Assembly: GCA_020249045.1 (NCBI GenBank)
Contig: JADCGK010000046.1
Location: 1-52,858 of the forward strand
DNA length: 52,858 nucleotides
Direction: 5' to 3'
Origin: Azospirillum sp.
GTDB taxonomy: Bacteria; Pseudomonadota; Alphaproteobacteria; CACIAM-22H2
Shown here one piece after another: positions 18,355 through 52,316 of the stretch. The translations under genes and the position numbers were made by a program. Under the pieces are notes generated by a model that made no database searches, had not been told where the DNA came from, and worked only from the letters and a program-made list of their open reading frames with translations. The stretch's first letter is position 1. Each line of letters opens with the position of its first letter.

Positions 18355-18373
18355 GATGTTATAAAGTAACATC
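18355..18373. promoter_or_regulatory. Zur-like palindrome before the His-rich outer-membrane gene
   Basis: GATGTTATAAAGTAACATC has 7-base inverted arms (GATGTTA/TAACATC) around five bases. Its core TGTTATA-A-AGTAACA shares the 7-1-7 spacing and 12 of 15 bases with the palindrome at 46853. It resembles Zur boxes (TGTTATAnTATAACA) and ends 13 bases before the start codon, where a repressor would block transcription. The Zur assignment is inference from the motif and from the His-rich product. Confidence 0.6.
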
Positions 18374-18386
18374 TGTGGGGGGGCTT

Positions 18387-19622
18387 ATGTTGAAAATCCT
18401 GAGTTTTTTAGCGGGTTTTGCTCTGCTTCTGGTTCCGGCCGCAGCGCAAGCTTCGGAAGGTCACGCGCACGGGGAAGGCGCGCATGTCGATACGGACGTC
18501 ACGCTGAAGCTTGGCGTGGATCGCAACTATCGTTCGACCAATGCCCGCACGCGCTACACCGACGCGTATGGCGAGGCCGAGGCCGTGGCCAAGTTCCATT
18601 TCAACGCGGCGTTCTTCGTCCAAGCGAAGCTGCATTGGGAACGCGTCAAGTTCGCGACAGAAAATCGCGCCTTCGGCGGGCACGGGCTTTATCTCGAAAA
18701 TCTGTTCGCCAGTCTCGCGTTCGACGGGAATTCGGTCGCGCTGGGCAAGTTCAATCCCAATTTCGGCATGGGGTGGGACGATGCGCGCATGCCGGGTTTC
18801 TACGCGAACGAGTTCGCGAAGGATTACCAGACGAAGGAGGCGATCGGCGCCGCCTACGGCCGGAAGGCCGATTTCGGCGCGCTCGGGACGCACAAATTCG
18901 ACGCGGCGTTCTTCTTCCTCGACAATACGTCGCTGTCCCGCTCGGCCTTCAACCGGCCTGCCTATGGCCCCGGCCAAGGTCCGTTGTCGACGACGCAACG
19001 CTTGGGCCAGAACCGCGCGATCTATGGCGGTCCGGGCAACACGACCGCGCCGGAATCGTTCGCTTTTCAATACGAAATCGCCGATCCCGCGGGCGTGGCG
19101 GGCCTCGTGTTCGCGGCCGGCTATCGCTACCTCGCGGCCGGAGACAAGCAGCCGGCTGGCCTTCAAGCCGGCAACGGTCCGGTCGCCTCCCGGGCCTCGC
19201 ACGGCACGGTCGCCGCGGCGCGCTACGAAATCGGATTGCCGGCCGGTTTCGTGGTCACGCCGTTCGTCGAGTGGGCGAAATTCACCGACGTATTCAATTC
19301 CGATCCCAATATCGGCGTGAATCAGTTCAAGGACCGCGCCTACCTGACCACCGCCGCGATCCTGACATGGCGCGATTGGACGCTGGTTGCCTCGCGGATG
19401 ACGCGCACCTTCGCCCGGCCGGACAACGAAGCCGTGGCCGGCGCCTTCTTCAATCAGGAAGACCGTCAGGTCGCCGCCAACCTTCTCTACAAGGTTTGGG
19501 ACGACCTGACGCTCGGGGCGGGCTACCGCAAGACGCGCGCAGTGCCGGTCTTCGGCAACGTCAACCGGCAGGCGGTGACGAACAGCTTCGGCGCACAAGC
19601 CGTGTACACGCTGGAATTCTGA
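18387..19622 (+). CDS. Outer-membrane porin-like protein with His-rich mature N-terminus
   Basis: A 411-residue exported protein. The signal peptide MLKILSFLAGFALLLVPAAA is cut near AQA-S. The mature N-terminus EGHAHGEGAHVD has three His and could bind Zn2+ or a similar metal. The body alternates short beta strands and ends in a Phe (VYTLEF), the usual outer-membrane barrel signature. ATG 18387 begins the signal peptide; in-frame upstream sequence covers the palindrome and is not coding. It is monocistronic and converges on bcp. A Zur-like site lies directly in front. A metal-uptake channel is a reasonable inference; a generic porin is the alternative. Confidence 0.75.
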   Translation: MLKILSFLAGFALLLVPAAAQASEGHAHGEGAHVDTDVTLKLGVDRNYRSTNARTRYTDAYGEAEAVAKFHFNAAFFVQAKLHWERVKFATENRAFGGHGLYLENLFASLAFDGNSVALGKFNPNFGMGWDDARMPGFYANEFAKDYQTKEAIGAAYGRKADFGALGTHKFDAAFFFLDNTSLSRSAFNRPAYGPGQGPLSTTQRLGQNRAIYGGPGNTTAPESFAFQYEIADPAGVAGLVFAAGYRYLAAGDKQPAGLQAGNGPVASRASHGTVAAARYEIGLPAGFVVTPFVEWAKFTDVFNSDPNIGVNQFKDRAYLTTAAILTWRDWTLVASRMTRTFARPDNEAVAGAFFNQEDRQVAANLLYKVWDDLTLGAGYRKTRAVPVFGNVNRQAVTNSFGAQAVYTLEF

Positions 19623-46128: not shown

Positions 46129-46157
46129 TTGACAAGGGGCGGGCGAAGGAACACGCT
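46129..46157 (+). promoter_or_regulatory. Candidate promoter of the riboswitch transcript
   Basis: A perfect -35 hexamer TTGACA (46129-46134) is followed after 17 bases by CACGCT, a poor -10. It lies just before the riboswitch, so it is the likely transcription start region, but the -10 is uncertain. Confidence 0.4.
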
Positions 46158-46161
46158 CCGT

Positions 46162-46332
46162 GCTGATGGTTCCCGCCAGGGATTGAATGGGAACGCGGTC
46201 GGGGTTCGCCCCAAGCCGCGGCTGCCCCCGCAACTGTAAGCGGCGAGCCGATCCGTCACACAGCCACTGGGCCGGAACCCCGGGAAGGCGACGGACCGGC
46301 GGTGACCCGCGAGCCAGGAGACCTGCCATCGC
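46162..46332 (+). ncRNA. Cobalamin (B12) riboswitch
   Basis: The aptamer contains all hallmarks: GGGAACGCGGT, GCTGCCCCCGCAACTGTAAG, the B12 box AGCCACTG (46262-46269), GGGAAGGCG (46282-46290) and GAGCCAGGAGACCTGCC (46311-46327). Adenosylcobalamin binding normally lowers expression of the gene downstream, here the DUF1636-type gene and possibly the whole transporter-GTPase run. It occupies most of the 331-base space between the NUDIX and DUF1636 genes. Confidence 0.95.
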
Positions 46333-46400
46333 AGTCGGTCACAGGCGGCCGTACCGGGCGGGGTGTCTCGGGACGTTGTTCGCGGGTGACGCACCGATCG

Positions 46401-46852: not shown

Positions 46853-46867
46853 TGTTATAGTATAACA
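46853..46867. promoter_or_regulatory. Zur-type palindrome TGTTATAGTATAACA
   Basis: A perfect 7-1-7 inverted repeat in the 47-base gap between the DUF1636-type and binding-protein genes. It matches the bacterial Zur consensus (TGTTATAnTATAACA) and the palindrome at 18355. It ends 26 bases before the ATG of the transporter gene. It should control a second, zinc-responsive promoter inside the run. Binding by Zur is inference. Confidence 0.72.
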
Positions 46868-46893: not shown

Positions 46894-48366
46894 ATGGACA
46901 TGCGTTGGTTTTTCGCCGTTTTGCTGGCGCTGTCGCCGATTGCCGCCGACGCGCAGACGCGTCCGCTCGTCGTCGGGCAAAGCTTTCTCACCGACTCGCT
47001 GGACCCCGTACAGGGTGTCGCGGGTTGGGCGTTGCAGTCGCACGGCGTCGCGGAGACCTTATTCACCGTTGATCGGCAGGGCCGCGTCGTGCCGCATTTG
47101 GCCGAAAGCGTGCGCCGGGACGGCGAGGCTTTCGTGATCCGCCTGAAGCCGGACCTGAAATTCGCGGACGGGTCGCCGCTGGACGCTGCGGCGCTCAAAG
47201 CCTCGCTCGAACGCGCGACGCGCGAGAATCCGCGCGCGCGGGCGCAGACCGGCGCGTTGGCGTTGATGGCGTTGGACGCGCGCGAAGTGCGTATGCGGCC
47301 CGAACGGCCCGTCGCGGCGATCGAAAGCGTCCTCGCCGAATTTCCATTGGCTGTCCACAAAGCCGACGGGACCAACGTGCACATGACGGGTCCGTTCCGG
47401 CCGGTCGAATTCCGGCGCGGGGAAACCTTGCGGCTCGAACCCAACCCGCATTACCGCGACGCGGGCGCACGGCCGAACGTGACGATCCGGCGCGTGGGCG
47501 ACGCGCAGACGCTGGCGCTGGCGCTGGAAAGCGGCGAGGTCGATATCGCGTTCAATCTGGCGCCCGAAACGCTGGCGCGCGTGCGCGCCCGGCCGGGGAT
47601 CGGCGTCAAATCCACGCCGGTCGCCTACCAGTACATGATGCTGTTCAACACCGCCAAAGCGCCGTTCGACGATCCGCGCGTGCGCCGTGCGGCGGACCTT
47701 GCGATCGATCGTGCGACGTTGACGGCGGCGGTGAACGGCGGCGAACCCGCGAGCGGCATGTTCCCGCGCGTCTTCCCCTTCGCGGCCGAAACGCCGCGCC
47801 CGACCGACACGCGCGAAGCGGCGGCGTTGCTCGATGCGGCCGGATGGCGTGCCGGCCCCGACGGTCGGCGCTCGAAAGACGGTCGACCGCTCGAATTCAC
47901 GCTGACGACCTATCCCCAGCGGCCCGATCTGGTCGCGATCGCCCCGGTGGTCCGCGCCGAATTGGAGCGCGTCGGGTTCCGCGTGCGGATCGAGATCGTC
48001 GAGGCGATCACGCCGCAGTTGCAGGCCAAGCGGTTCGACGCGTCGCTGTGGGCCATGCATGCCGCCCCCGGCGGGGACGGCGCGTTCGTGTTCGAGCAGT
48101 ATCTGCGCTCGACCGGTCCGTCGAACTTCATGTCTTTCGCCGATCCGGCGCTCGACGCGGCGCTCGACAGCTTGCGCGAGATCGACGCGGCGCCCGCGCG
48201 TGCGGCCGCGCTGCGCGAGATCGAGCGACGGACGTTCGTTTCGGCGCCGATCGCCTATCTGATGACCCCGGTCTGGCATGTCGGCCTATCCGCCCGGGCG
48301 GCGGATTACGTGCCCTATCCGTCGGACTATTACGTCGTCCGCGCCGACCTGCGCGCGCGGCCCTGA
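46894..48366 (+). CDS. Nickel/peptide-type ABC transporter substrate-binding protein (SBP family 5)
   Basis: A 490-residue periplasmic protein of the DppA/NikA/OppA family. The signal peptide (WFFAVLLALSPIAADA) is cut before QTRPLVVG. VVPHLAESVRRDGEAFVIRL and FADGSPLDAAALKASLERAT are the conserved N-lobe segments; RRAADLAIDRATLTAAVNGG marks the C-lobe hinge. GAGGAG lies 7 bases before ATG 46894. The ligand may be a metal chelate, metallophore or peptide; in this setting a zinc or cobalt complex is suspected. Its stop overlaps the next start by one base. Confidence 0.88.
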   Translation: MDMRWFFAVLLALSPIAADAQTRPLVVGQSFLTDSLDPVQGVAGWALQSHGVAETLFTVDRQGRVVPHLAESVRRDGEAFVIRLKPDLKFADGSPLDAAALKASLERATRENPRARAQTGALALMALDAREVRMRPERPVAAIESVLAEFPLAVHKADGTNVHMTGPFRPVEFRRGETLRLEPNPHYRDAGARPNVTIRRVGDAQTLALALESGEVDIAFNLAPETLARVRARPGIGVKSTPVAYQYMMLFNTAKAPFDDPRVRRAADLAIDRATLTAAVNGGEPASGMFPRVFPFAAETPRPTDTREAAALLDAAGWRAGPDGRRSKDGRPLEFTLTTYPQRPDLVAIAPVVRAELERVGFRVRIEIVEAITPQLQAKRFDASLWAMHAAPGGDGAFVFEQYLRSTGPSNFMSFADPALDAALDSLREIDAAPARAAALREIERRTFVSAPIAYLMTPVWHVGLSARAADYVPYPSDYYVVRADLRARP

Positions 48367-49283
48367 TGCGCGCGTTGGCGGCCGAACTTGCGCGGGCGAC
48401 CTTGTTGCTGTGGCTTGCGAGCCTCGCCGCGTTCGCGGTCGTCCGCGCAATGCCGGCCGATCCGGCGGCCCTTGGTTTGATCGCCTTCGGCCAAGCGGCC
48501 GATCCCGAAACCGTCGCCGCCTTGCGCGCGCAATGGGGCTTGGATCGGCCGATGGCGGTCCAGTATTTCGGCTGGCTTGCGGATTTCCTGTCCGGCGACT
48601 GGCGGCGGTCCTTCCGGACCGGAGAGCCGATCTTCGAGGAATTCGCCCGGCGTCTGCCGGTCAGTTTGACCGTCGGGTTCGGCGGCTTGTTCGTGGCGCT
48701 GGCGATCGCGGGGCCGCTCGCGACGGCGGCGGCGAAACGACCGGCGGGCGGCGCGGCCCGGTTGCTCGACGCCGCGACCCTGGGTGCGCAGGCGATACCG
48801 GCCTTCTTCGCCGGTTGCGTGCTGGTATGGCTGTTCGCGGTCGAGTTCCGCGTCGTGACCGTGCTGGGGGAGGGGCCGGGGCGCTACGTCCTGCCGATTT
48901 TGATCGTGGCGTTCACCGGGCTTGGTCCGCTCGCGCAAGTCTATCGCGCCGGCTTGGCGGAGGCCGGCCGCGCGGATTACATGCGCACGGCGTTGGCCAA
49001 AGGGGCCGATCCCGAACGGGCGTTGGCCGGCCACGGCGGGCGCTACGCGCGCTTGGGCTTGAGTGCGGCGTTGACCGCCGAGGCCGGCTGGATCGTCGGC
49101 GGATCGGCGGTGGTCGAGGTCGTCTTCGGGTTGCCGGGGATCGGGGCGTTCCTGGTCGATGCGGTCGCAATGCGCGACTATTTCGTGCTGCAAGCCTACA
49201 TCGTCGTCGCGGCGGCGTGGATGTTGATCGTCGCGGCGATCGCCGCGGTCGCGCGCCGCGCGCTCGACCCGAGGGCGGGCTGA
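48366..49283 (+). CDS. ABC transporter permease, DppB/NikB type
   Basis: A 305-residue inner-membrane protein with six hydrophobic helices. RAMPADPAALGLIAFGQAAD, then ETVAALRAQWGLDRPMAVQY and FGWLADFLSGDW(R)RSFRTG, are the N-terminal signature of the dipeptide/nickel permeases. EAGRADYMRTALAKGADPER contains the ATPase-coupling loop. It overlaps the genes on both sides by one base (TGATG), so the three transporter genes are coupled. Confidence 0.92.
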   Translation: MRALAAELARATLLLWLASLAAFAVVRAMPADPAALGLIAFGQAADPETVAALRAQWGLDRPMAVQYFGWLADFLSGDWRRSFRTGEPIFEEFARRLPVSLTVGFGGLFVALAIAGPLATAAAKRPAGGAARLLDAATLGAQAIPAFFAGCVLVWLFAVEFRVVTVLGEGPGRYVLPILIVAFTGLGPLAQVYRAGLAEAGRADYMRTALAKGADPERALAGHGGRYARLGLSAALTAEAGWIVGGSAVVEVVFGLPGIGAFLVDAVAMRDYFVLQAYIVVAAAWMLIVAAIAAVARRALDPRAG

Positions 49284-50191
49284 TGTCCCACCACGCGCCC
49301 GCCGCCATCGAGCGCAAGCTTTGGCTCATCCCGGCGCTGGCCGTCGCGGCGGCCGTATGCGCCTTCTGGCAGCCTTATCCGCCCGATGCCGTCGATGTGT
49401 TCAACCGCCACGCGCCACCGTCGGCCGCGCATTGGCTGGGAACCGACCAACTCGGCCGCGACCTCGCTTCGCGCGTCATGGCCGGCATGGCGCGGACGTT
49501 CCTCGCCGTCGGCATCGTCGCGGCCATGTGCGTGGCGCTCGGCCTTGCGGTCGGACTGGCGGCGGCGGGTGCGCGGGGGATCGTCCGTGCGGGCTTGCTG
49601 CGGCTGGCCGAATTCGCGGCCGTGATGCCGTCCATGGTCGTGGCGATCGCCGTCGTGGCGGTGGCGGGGTTCGACGTCGTGACCGCCGGGGTGGCGCTCG
49701 GCTTGGGCGCTTGGGGCCCCTATGCGCTGCTCGCCGACGGGCTCGCGCGCCGCGCGCTCGCCGAACCTTACGTCCGCGCGGCCGCCGCATTGGGCGCCTC
49801 GCGTCCGCGCGTGCTCGTTCGGCACGTCTTGCCCGCGATCCTCGACACCCAATTCGCCTATCTGGGCGCAAAGCTGGGCCGCGTGGCGATCGCCTATGCC
49901 GCACTCGCCTTTCTCGGTCTGGGGGCGGATCCCGGCCGGCCCGATTGGGGCGCCATGCTCCACGAATACCGGCTGCTCGCTTTCGACCATCCGGGGCTGA
50001 TGCTGTGGCCCGGCTTCGCGCTGGTGACGATGTGCGTGGTTTTGCGCGCGGCGTTGGGCAAGGATGCGGGCGCGCGGGTGCCGGCAAGCTCGGCCGATAC
50101 GCCCGCAGCGCTGGCGTGCGCCGACCTGCACGCGCCCGAAGCCGATAACCCCGTCGCGGTTGGGGTGGAAACCGCGCCCCGAACCGGCTAA
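49283..50191 (+). CDS. ABC transporter permease, DppC/NikC type
   Basis: A 302-residue partner of the preceding permease. HWLGTDQLGRDLASRVMAGM is the DppC/NikC signature, and RAAAALGASRPRVLVRHVLP is the coupling loop. The final 40 residues are a soluble tail (KDAGARVPASSADTPAALAC...) without a known counterpart. No ATPase gene of the NikD/NikE type follows; the next gene, 29 bases on, is a GTPase. The transporter must use an ATPase encoded elsewhere. Confidence 0.92.
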   Translation: MSHHAPAAIERKLWLIPALAVAAAVCAFWQPYPPDAVDVFNRHAPPSAAHWLGTDQLGRDLASRVMAGMARTFLAVGIVAAMCVALGLAVGLAAAGARGIVRAGLLRLAEFAAVMPSMVVAIAVVAVAGFDVVTAGVALGLGAWGPYALLADGLARRALAEPYVRAAAALGASRPRVLVRHVLPAILDTQFAYLGAKLGRVAIAYAALAFLGLGADPGRPDWGAMLHEYRLLAFDHPGLMLWPGFALVTMCVVLRAALGKDAGARVPASSADTPAALACADLHAPEADNPVAVGVETAPRTG

Positions 50192-50220
50192 ATCCACCGG
50201 CGACCTCCGACGGAGAACCC

Positions 50221-51294
50221 ATGTCCCAGCCGATTCCCGTTACCGTCCTGACCGGCTATCTCGGCGCCGGCAAGACCACCCTGCTGAACCGCATCCTGAC
50301 CGAATCGCACGGCAAGAAGTACGCCGTCATCATCAACGAGTTCGGCGAGGTCGGCATCGACAACGACATCGTCGTCGGCACCGACGAAGAAATCTTCGAG
50401 ATGAACAACGGGTGCATCTGCTGCACCGTGCGCGGCGATCTGATCCGCACGATCGGCGGCTTGATGAAGCGCGCCGACGCGCTGGACGGCATCATCGTCG
50501 AAACGACCGGACTCGCGGACCCGGCCCCGGTGGCGCAAACCTTCTTCACCGACGACGAGGTGAAGGCCAAGACCCAACTCGACGCCGTCGTGACGGTGGT
50601 GGACGCCAAGCACTTCCCCTTGCGGCTGGAGGACAGTCGCGAGGCCGAAGACCAGGTGGCCTTCGCCGACGTCGTACTGCTCAACAAGACCGATTTGGTG
50701 TCGCCCGCCGATCTCGCCGCCGTCGAACGGCGCATCCGCGAGATCAATCCCTACGCGCGCATCCACCGCACGCAGAAAAGCGCCATCGAACTCGACAAGA
50801 TCCTCGACAAGGGCGCGTTCGACTTGCAGCGCATTCTCGCGCTCGATCCGCATTTCCTGCACGATCACGGCCATCATCACGACCATGATGATGGCCACGA
50901 TCACGATCCGGCGACGTGCGACGATCCGACCCACGATCACAGCCACGACCATCACCATCACCACCATCACGACGCGCCCAATCCCAAGCACGCCGACGAC
51001 GTGTTCTCGGTCGCCGCGGTCGTGGACGGGCCGGTCGATCCCGAGAAGTTCCGCGTTTGGATTTCGGGCATCTTGCAAAGCCAGGGACAGAACATCCTTC
51101 GTTCGAAGGGCGTGCTGGCGGTCGAGGGGGCTGAGCAGCGCTTCGTCTTCCAAGCCGTTCACATGATCGCCGATTCGACGTGGGGCCAGCCCTGGCGCGC
51201 GGGCGAGAAGCGTGGCTCGAAGCTCGTCTTCATCGGCCGCAAGCTCGACGCGGAGGCGCTCAAGGCCGGGTTCGAGGCCTGCAAAGCGGCATGA
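50221..51294 (+). CDS. COG0523 GTPase (CobW/YciC/ZigA-like) with His-rich loop
   Basis: A 357-residue P-loop GTPase metallochaperone. Walker A is GYLGAGKTT (residues 12-20), the metal-binding motif is C65-I-C67-C68, and base recognition is NKTD. Residues about 211-257 are dominated by His and Asp and should bind several metal ions; the CobW C-terminal domain follows. Zinc-regulated members deliver zinc to proteins under zinc starvation; others act in cobalamin synthesis (CobW) or nitrile hydratase. Here a Zur-like site upstream favours zinc, a B12 riboswitch leaves cobalt open. Its stop overlaps the WD40 gene start by 4 bases. Confidence 0.9.
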   Translation: MSQPIPVTVLTGYLGAGKTTLLNRILTESHGKKYAVIINEFGEVGIDNDIVVGTDEEIFEMNNGCICCTVRGDLIRTIGGLMKRADALDGIIVETTGLADPAPVAQTFFTDDEVKAKTQLDAVVTVVDAKHFPLRLEDSREAEDQVAFADVVLLNKTDLVSPADLAAVERRIREINPYARIHRTQKSAIELDKILDKGAFDLQRILALDPHFLHDHGHHHDHDDGHDHDPATCDDPTHDHSHDHHHHHHHDAPNPKHADDVFSVAAVVDGPVDPEKFRVWISGILQSQGQNILRSKGVLAVEGAEQRFVFQAVHMIADSTWGQPWRAGEKRGSKLVFIGRKLDAEALKAGFEACKAA

Positions 51295-52316
51295 GCGAGG
51301 CCAAGTTACCGGCGCGGCGCGAGTTCGCGTTCGGCGCCTATGTATCCGGTGCGGCTTTCACGGCCGACGGCGAAACGGCCGGCTTCGCACTCGGTTCGGG
51401 TGCGATCAAGCTCGTGACCGTCGCGGATTCGAGCGTGCGCGAGATAGCGGCGCACAAGGGCGCGTCGCTGAGTTTCGCCGCACACCCGGACGGCAACTCC
51501 TTCCTGTCGGGCGGGGACGACGGGCGCCTCGTGCGCGTCGCGCGCGACGGGGAAACTTCCGAGGTCGCGAAATTCCAAGGCAAGTGGCTCGACGTTCTCG
51601 CCACGCACAAATCGGGCGGCTTCGCCTGCGCGTTCGGCAAGGAAATCCGCTATTGGGCACCCGGCGCGACCGAGCCCAAAACGCTGGGGCCGCACCCGAG
51701 TTCGGTCGCCGCCCTCGATTTCAGCCCCGACGGCAGCCGTCTGGCCGCCGCCCATTACGGCGGCGCGTCGATCTGGCAAATCCGAAATCCCGCCAGCGCC
51801 CCGCGCAAGCTGGATTGGAAGGGCAGTCACATCGTCGTCAGATACGCACCCAACGGCAAATTTCTGGCGACGACCACGCAAGACAACGCGATCCATGTTT
51901 GGCGTCTGGCCAATGGCCAGGACATGCAGATGGCCGGCTATCGGACCAAGGTGAAGGCGCTCGCCTGGACGGCCGACGCGCGCTACCTGCTGTCCGACGC
52001 GGCCGATTGCTTCGTGTGCTGGGATTTCTCGGGCAAGGGGCCGGAAGGCCAACCGCCCGTCGAGTACGGCTTCGGCGACGGCCGGGCGATGACCGCGGCG
52101 ATCGCCCACCCCGATAGCCCGTTCGTTTGCGGCGGGTTCGAGAACGGCGCCTTGCGCCTGGGCGATATGGATTCCAAGCGCGATCTCGAATTGCGGCCCG
52201 GCGCCGACGACCGCAAGCCGATCCGCGCGATGGCGTGGTCCCCCGACGGCTGGCGCATCGCCGCGGGTGCGGAAGACGGCTATGCGACCGTCTTCGATTT
52301 GAAGGCCAAGTCGTAG
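51291..52316 (+). CDS. WD40-repeat protein coupled to the COG0523 GTPase
   Basis: A 341-residue soluble beta-propeller with about seven WD40-like repeats (for example VAALDFSPDGSRLAAAHYGG, YAPNGKFLATTTQDNAIHVW, MAWSPDGWRIAAGAEDGYAT). It has no signal peptide. The start overlaps the GTPase stop (ATGA), so the two are made together and probably interact. WD40 proteins commonly accompany COG0523 GTPases in alphaproteobacteria, but their role is not established. A scaffold presenting client proteins to the metallochaperone is a hypothesis. Confidence 0.85.
   Translation: MSEAKLPARREFAFGAYVSGAAFTADGETAGFALGSGAIKLVTVADSSVREIAAHKGASLSFAAHPDGNSFLSGGDDGRLVRVARDGETSEVAKFQGKWLDVLATHKSGGFACAFGKEIRYWAPGATEPKTLGPHPSSVAALDFSPDGSRLAAAHYGGASIWQIRNPASAPRKLDWKGSHIVVRYAPNGKFLATTTQDNAIHVWRLANGQDMQMAGYRTKVKALAWTADARYLLSDAADCFVCWDFSGKGPEGQPPVEYGFGDGRAMTAAIAHPDSPFVCGGFENGALRLGDMDSKRDLELRPGADDRKPIRAMAWSPDGWRIAAGAEDGYATVFDLKAKS

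Follow-up and report, generated by a model that had tools for sequence, protein, structure and literature searches.

The window, by which we mean the whole 52,858-nucleotide stretch of Azospirillum sp. DNA analyzed here (contig JADCGK010000046.1), encodes a porin-like outer-membrane protein on its forward strand at positions 18387 to 19622. The reading frame is intact and comprises 411 codons and a stop codon. Upstream lies what we take, by eye, to be a prfB-like release-factor gene, and the downstream neighbor on the opposite strand is presumably a peroxiredoxin-like gene, likewise assigned by eye. The encoded protein begins with a predicted signal peptide, MLKILSFLAGFALLLVPAAAQA (residues 1-22, 18387-18452, forward strand), followed by the histidine-rich segment SEGHAHGEGAHVDTD. 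Alignment of relatives defines a histidine-rich mature tail, SEGHAHGEGAHVD (residues 23-35, 18453-18491, forward strand), which contains three histidines and leads into a beta-barrel of 16 strands with a terminal phenylalanine (residues 33-411, 18483-19619, forward strand), predicted from structure modeling and fold comparison. A first-pass annotation of this DNA had described a porin-like protein with a histidine-rich mature N-terminus, and the open reading frame, signal peptide and tail bear this out. It had placed the mature start at EGHAHGEGAH (Glu24); the histidine-rich start holds, but the AxA cleavage rule, judged by eye, puts the first residue one position earlier, at Ser23, giving the mature end (S)EGHAHGEGAHVDTD. 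Signal peptide ends of the AxA type are also found in most relatives of the protein.

By sequence, the protein belongs to no cataloged family: it gave no Pfam or NCBIfam match at E values up to 1 and no relative in a PDB sequence search. A profile of the porin family found two weak matches in the PDB (a phosphoporin PhoE entry at 0.019 and OmpK35 at 0.029), and seven of 26 family members matched Porin_4 at E values up to 1, the best at 8e-7. Nine distant matches were found in a plasmid collection (28-32% identity), which are called porin or hypothetical protein where annotated. An AlphaFold2 model of the window protein has 16 strands at a mean pLDDT of 80, no plug, and a mostly disordered tail, in keeping with the first-pass suggestion of a beta-barrel and supplying the strand number that it had asked for. 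The first Foldseek match of this model was the Vibrio chitoporin VhChiP, and pairwise fold comparison gave Z scores of 25.7 for OprO (rmsd 3.4, 309 residues aligned), 25.4 for Omp35 (rmsd 3.2, 310 aligned) and about 25 for OmpC. Sixteen strands, the absence of a plug and a final phenylalanine (F411) are all features of general porins, and because the strand number is even, both termini are likely to be periplasmic. The predicted strand number and fold are therefore like those of OmpF/OmpC/Omp35 and OprP/OprO, but identity to these proteins is only 7-14%, and the window porin differs from them in its histidine tail, its zinc-type regulation and its lack of a Pfam match. Outside the tail the barrel is not histidine-rich (1.3% in its own clade versus 1.1% in paralogues). 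Given this low histidine content and the near-neutral mean charge of its clade (-1, versus -37 in a second tailed clade described below and -30 and -44 in two untailed groups), it is not apparently tuned for divalent cations.

The gene is preceded by a perfect 19-bp palindrome, GATGTTATAAAGTAACATC (18355-18373), with 7-bp arms and a 5-bp spacer. The first-pass annotation had reported such a palindrome at 14 bases before the ATG; the palindrome itself is there, but by our count 13 bp separate its end from the start codon. No sigma-70 promoter was found upstream of the gene. The core of the palindrome fits GTTA-N5-TAAC, which is described as conserved in the Zur sites of many proteobacteria (PMC4176598). 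The window contains two copies of the 15-bp core TGTTA-N5-TAACA, at 18357 and 46853, against 0.00 expected from 100 shuffles, and the 3.87-Mb genome contains three without mismatch and none of a backwards control pattern; on these counts a chance palindrome was rejected. When one mismatch was allowed, motif and control each occurred five times, so that only perfect sites carry weight.

Zinc-type genes follow each of the three perfect sites in the genome. One is that of the porin. The second (46853-46867) lies before a presumed co-regulated, zinc-type operon on the forward strand (46894-51294) in which Pfam searches identified an SBP_bac_5 gene (46894-48366), two BPD_transp_1 permeases (48366-49283 and 49283-50191) and a histidine-rich COG0523/CobW GTPase (50221-51294); a WD40-repeat protein gene (51291-52316, forward strand, Pfam) overlaps the last of these. 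No ABC ATPase gene was seen within this SBP5/two-permease/COG0523/WD40 operon. A cobalamin riboswitch (46150-46344), followed by a gene that we take by eye to encode a DUF1636 protein, lies upstream of the 46853 site. The third site (L002, G000:C18:5571) is flanked on one side by a DUF1826 gene, which is divergent, and on the other by the gene for a COG0523 GTPase with a long histidine stretch.

The same association was apparent among relatives. Across the 11 genomes of the genus we found 17 perfect sites and four of the control pattern; seven of the 17 precede this porin, five precede SBP5 transporters, two lie beside DUF1826 genes, one lies between znuA and zur-znuCB (G394), and two are unrelated. 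The sole perfect site in each of G389 and G390, which represent two other genera of the family, also falls between znuA and zur-znuCB, a gap that thus carries the perfect motif in three sister genomes. In the genome under study a FUR-family gene immediately precedes znuC and znuB, znuA runs divergently, and the zur/znuA intergenic region has the motif only in the degenerate form GGTATAATATATC. In G128 and G400 a common perfect site, TGTTAGCGAATAACA, lies beside what appears by eye to be a sugar-type operon (L159 1501 and L161 1501) and is apparently unrelated to zinc. The palindrome at 18355-18373 is very probably a Zur box, as predicted from its sequence and setting, and the Zur-like site of the first-pass annotation stands, since the motif precedes zinc-type genes and occurs in the zur/znu promoters of sister genomes.

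The neighboring transporter operon brings up an alternative in which the channel passes a zinc-metallophore complex on to the co-regulated SBP5-type ABC importer and the histidine tail serves as a minor docking element. The SBP5 class includes nickel and opine-metallophore importers, the window has its second Zur-like site in front of an SBP_bac_5 transporter, and five of the 17 genus sites are of this kind. We nevertheless consider this alternative unlikely, because two distantly related genomes (G133 and G168) have a tailed porin gene beside znu genes and not beside SBP5, and because a conserved histidine tail suggests the bare ion as substrate.

Within the genus, the porin gene is present in nine of 11 genomes, and the two that lack it are 74% and 84% complete. 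The histidine tail is found in all nine copies, with H26, H28, G31, H33 and D35 invariant in the six members that were aligned; untailed homologues in the same setting, which the first-pass annotation had named as evidence against its proposal, were not encountered in the genus. A box matching at 9 or more of 10 positions precedes eight of the nine copies: seven have the perfect core, G399 has 9 of 10, and the G128 homologue (L045, G128:C42; 71% identical) retains the tail but lacks a box in the 700 bp upstream. In eight genus genomes conservation is 91% in the core and 48% in the flanks, which is the pattern of a predicted footprint and not of general similarity. The porin gene of G401 (L162, G401:C64:9644-10739) is interrupted by a frame change and a stop codon, and its box and histidine tail are intact. 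The missing box in G128, along with the equal motif and control counts at one mismatch, could be taken to mean that palindrome and histidines coincide by accident in a gene with no link to zinc. This we regard as very improbable in view of the shuffles, the genome and genus site counts, the conservation of the core, and the pairing of tail and box across the family described next.

A second tailed group, of distant homologues with 23-25% identity, was found in 15 genomes of one genus, out of 25 genomes searched in that order, and in G133. The tail is present in all 16 of these proteins (4-14 histidines in the tail region) and is longer than that of the genus under study. All 16 genes also have a box, again matching at 9 or more of 10 positions, about 20-38 bp before the start; in 15 of 16 a TTGACA lies immediately 5' of it, which places the box over the expected -10 region. 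The three proteins of this clade that were aligned have a second histidine-rich loop (GHDHGGG or similar), whose two histidines are present in 16 of 16, and several further histidine positions in the clade were seen in no paralogue. The AlphaFold2 model of the distant G342 protein again has 16 strands (pLDDT 83), with tail and histidine loop disordered. In G133 the tailed porin gene follows znuB-znuC-zur, with znuA divergent, and in G168 it is divergent from znuA. In both genomes (G133, L080 9869-12243; G168, L084 1992-4344) znuA is followed by genes for an ABC ATPase, an FtsX/MacB-type permease and a DUF3299 protein, the first two assigned by eye in G168, a set that we take to resemble the zrg genes of Vibrio Zur regulons.

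Paralogues in the genomes of this distant clade have neither a tail nor a proximal box. Over the 69 rows scored, a box lies within 120 bp of 23 of the 24 genes for tailed proteins and of none of the 45 for untailed ones (Fisher p 2e-17, which is descriptive and not an independent probability, because the rows are related). This count omits L102 (from G401; gene broken, wrong frame picked), L046 (interrupted) and L140 (a duplicate of L075), and the set itself leaves aside the truncated L068 and L071, the paralogue L066, three paralogues without a locus (G765, G773 and G782) and six weak matches in the class (G064, G087, G118, G181, G196 and G232). Among the untailed genes, a perfect site (5720) lies 212 bp upstream in L063, and a near site (6482), matching 8 of 10, lies at 91 bp in L082; these may be Zur-regulated porins that lack the tail. 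No third tailed clade with a Zur box emerged from the rest of the phylum: when 398 genomes were compared with alignment A3, six matched, including the one under study, and a tail or box was found in none of the five new matches.

On the phylogenetic tree the tailed genes form two clades parted by starred branches, which calls for two changes of the tail label. A tree in which the tailed clades were held together was not rejected (AU p = 0.325), and both clades sit on long branches, so convergence is a possibility and no more; tail and Zur box may have arisen twice in the family.

The resemblance to general porins, and a barrel in the window clade that is not histidine-rich, would also fit an ordinary porin placed under Zur for envelope remodeling, with a tail that buffers periplasmic zinc and a pore that is no route for it. 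We think this quite unlikely: tail and box are paired in two clades, a box within 120 bp is absent from the 45 untailed relatives, and a buffer made in response to zinc starvation would have little point without a coupling to uptake.

TonB-dependent receptors are the usual explanation for how scarce zinc crosses the outer membrane. A search of the assembly under study (98% complete) for the TonB-receptor plug, PF07715, found none. This absence is not general in the genus, because eight of its 11 genomes have at least one plug (G393 has two). No Zur box was seen around the nine plug stretches of the genus, and cobalamin control of these loci was set aside, as they had no Rfam match. The window protein itself is not a TonB receptor, having no plug match and 16 strands, and since the plug domain is absent, coupling to TonB is not expected. 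The earlier proposal that the channel works without TonB thus withstands a search for the plug in both protein and assembly. With no plug in this assembly and no Zur box at the plug loci of the genus, the porin is the only outer-membrane candidate found under a Zur-like site.

Together, these observations suggest that the window porin is probably a zinc-repressed, TonB-independent outer-membrane zinc porin of the Zur regulon, one that supplies ZnuABC and uses its tail as a zinc-capturing element. When zinc is plentiful, Zn-Zur would occupy the palindrome close upstream of the start codon, turning the gene off; when zinc is scarce, release of Zur would allow the porin to be made together with ZnuABC and the COG0523 proteins. 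Diffusion through the plug-free, 16-stranded pore would then bring Zn2+, or zinc in a small complex, to the periplasm with no need for TonB. The tail, HxHGxGxHxD, is short, flexible and conserved; lying on the periplasmic side or folded into the pore mouth, it may capture the incoming ion and hand it over to ZnuA, and this capture would pull diffusion inward despite low zinc outside. The parts of this model differ in strength. Predicted regulation by Zur is strongly supported by the site comparisons, and a role in uptake is argued from the function of Zur-repressed genes, which is to acquire the metal or to spare it. That the tail binds zinc is suggested by its conservation only, and we infer the binding of Zur, the direction and selectivity of transport, and the hand-over to ZnuA. 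The zinc-selective, TonB-independent channel of the first-pass annotation accordingly gains from the link to Zur, the conservation of the tail, the 16-stranded barrel and the absence of a plug, with its selectivity among the parts so inferred; counted against a zinc porin are the missing box in G128, the plugs in eight of 11 genus genomes, the untuned barrel, a tail of only three histidines, and L063 and L082.

Precedents exist for several of these elements. ZnuD and other TonB-dependent zinc receptors are Zur-regulated in many bacteria, including Caulobacter, according to published regulon accounts (PMC4176598, PMC6103462). They share with the proposed porin the step, zinc crossing the outer membrane, and the regulator, but the ZnuD type has a plug domain, a 22-stranded barrel and TonB, whereas the window porin has no plug, 16 predicted strands and no expected coupling to TonB. 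LbtU of Legionella and the FupA-type proteins of Francisella mediate TonB-independent uptake of iron across the outer membrane; they resemble the proposed porin in dispensing with TonB but differ in the metal, and the window porin has no NCBIfam match. The Msp fold is different from the 16-stranded porin fold, and a porin of the MspD type was ruled out here by the absence of a Pfam match and by the single-chain, 16-stranded model. MspD of Mycobacterium smegmatis is nonetheless a functional precedent as a zinc-starvation porin, being induced by zinc starvation and by deletion of zur, with a role in zinc homeostasis (abstract of PMC13098993); it differs in being of the mycobacterial Msp type, in another membrane, and that abstract mentions no histidine tail. 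VhChiP combines the porin fold with a mobile N-terminal segment, as the window porin does, and the account of its 19-residue N-plug describes gating of the pores (PMC10406626); its substrates are chitosugars, and that account does not present the N-plug as a metal site. By analogy, and tentatively, since we hold it possible but doubtful, the disordered tail might bind Zn2+ in or below the pore and so gate or ratchet the porin, with directional diffusion replacing TonB-driven uptake in an arrangement that may have arisen twice.

A literature search for porins described as zinc-responsive, Zur-regulated, zinc-regulated or zinc-specific returned no paper, and for alphaproteobacteria no porin of the kind proposed here was found in print; a wider search for outer-membrane zinc routes returned MspD and TonB receptors. 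Passages of the Zur-regulon table in a 2018 review list TonB receptors and no porin for alphaproteobacteria (PMC6103462). MspD has been reported (PMC13098993, 2026), so a porin made on zinc starvation is not a new idea; what appear to be new are the porin family, its histidine tail and its membership of alphaproteobacterial Zur regulons. The analysis also names a family of porins not cataloged before and enlarges these regulons by a predicted member. As a testable alternative to TonB-dependent receptors, the tailed porins offer a channel that lacks a plug, would be produced under zinc starvation and carries its own metal ligand, and the predicted Zur-regulon porin occurs in species that have few TonB receptors or none.
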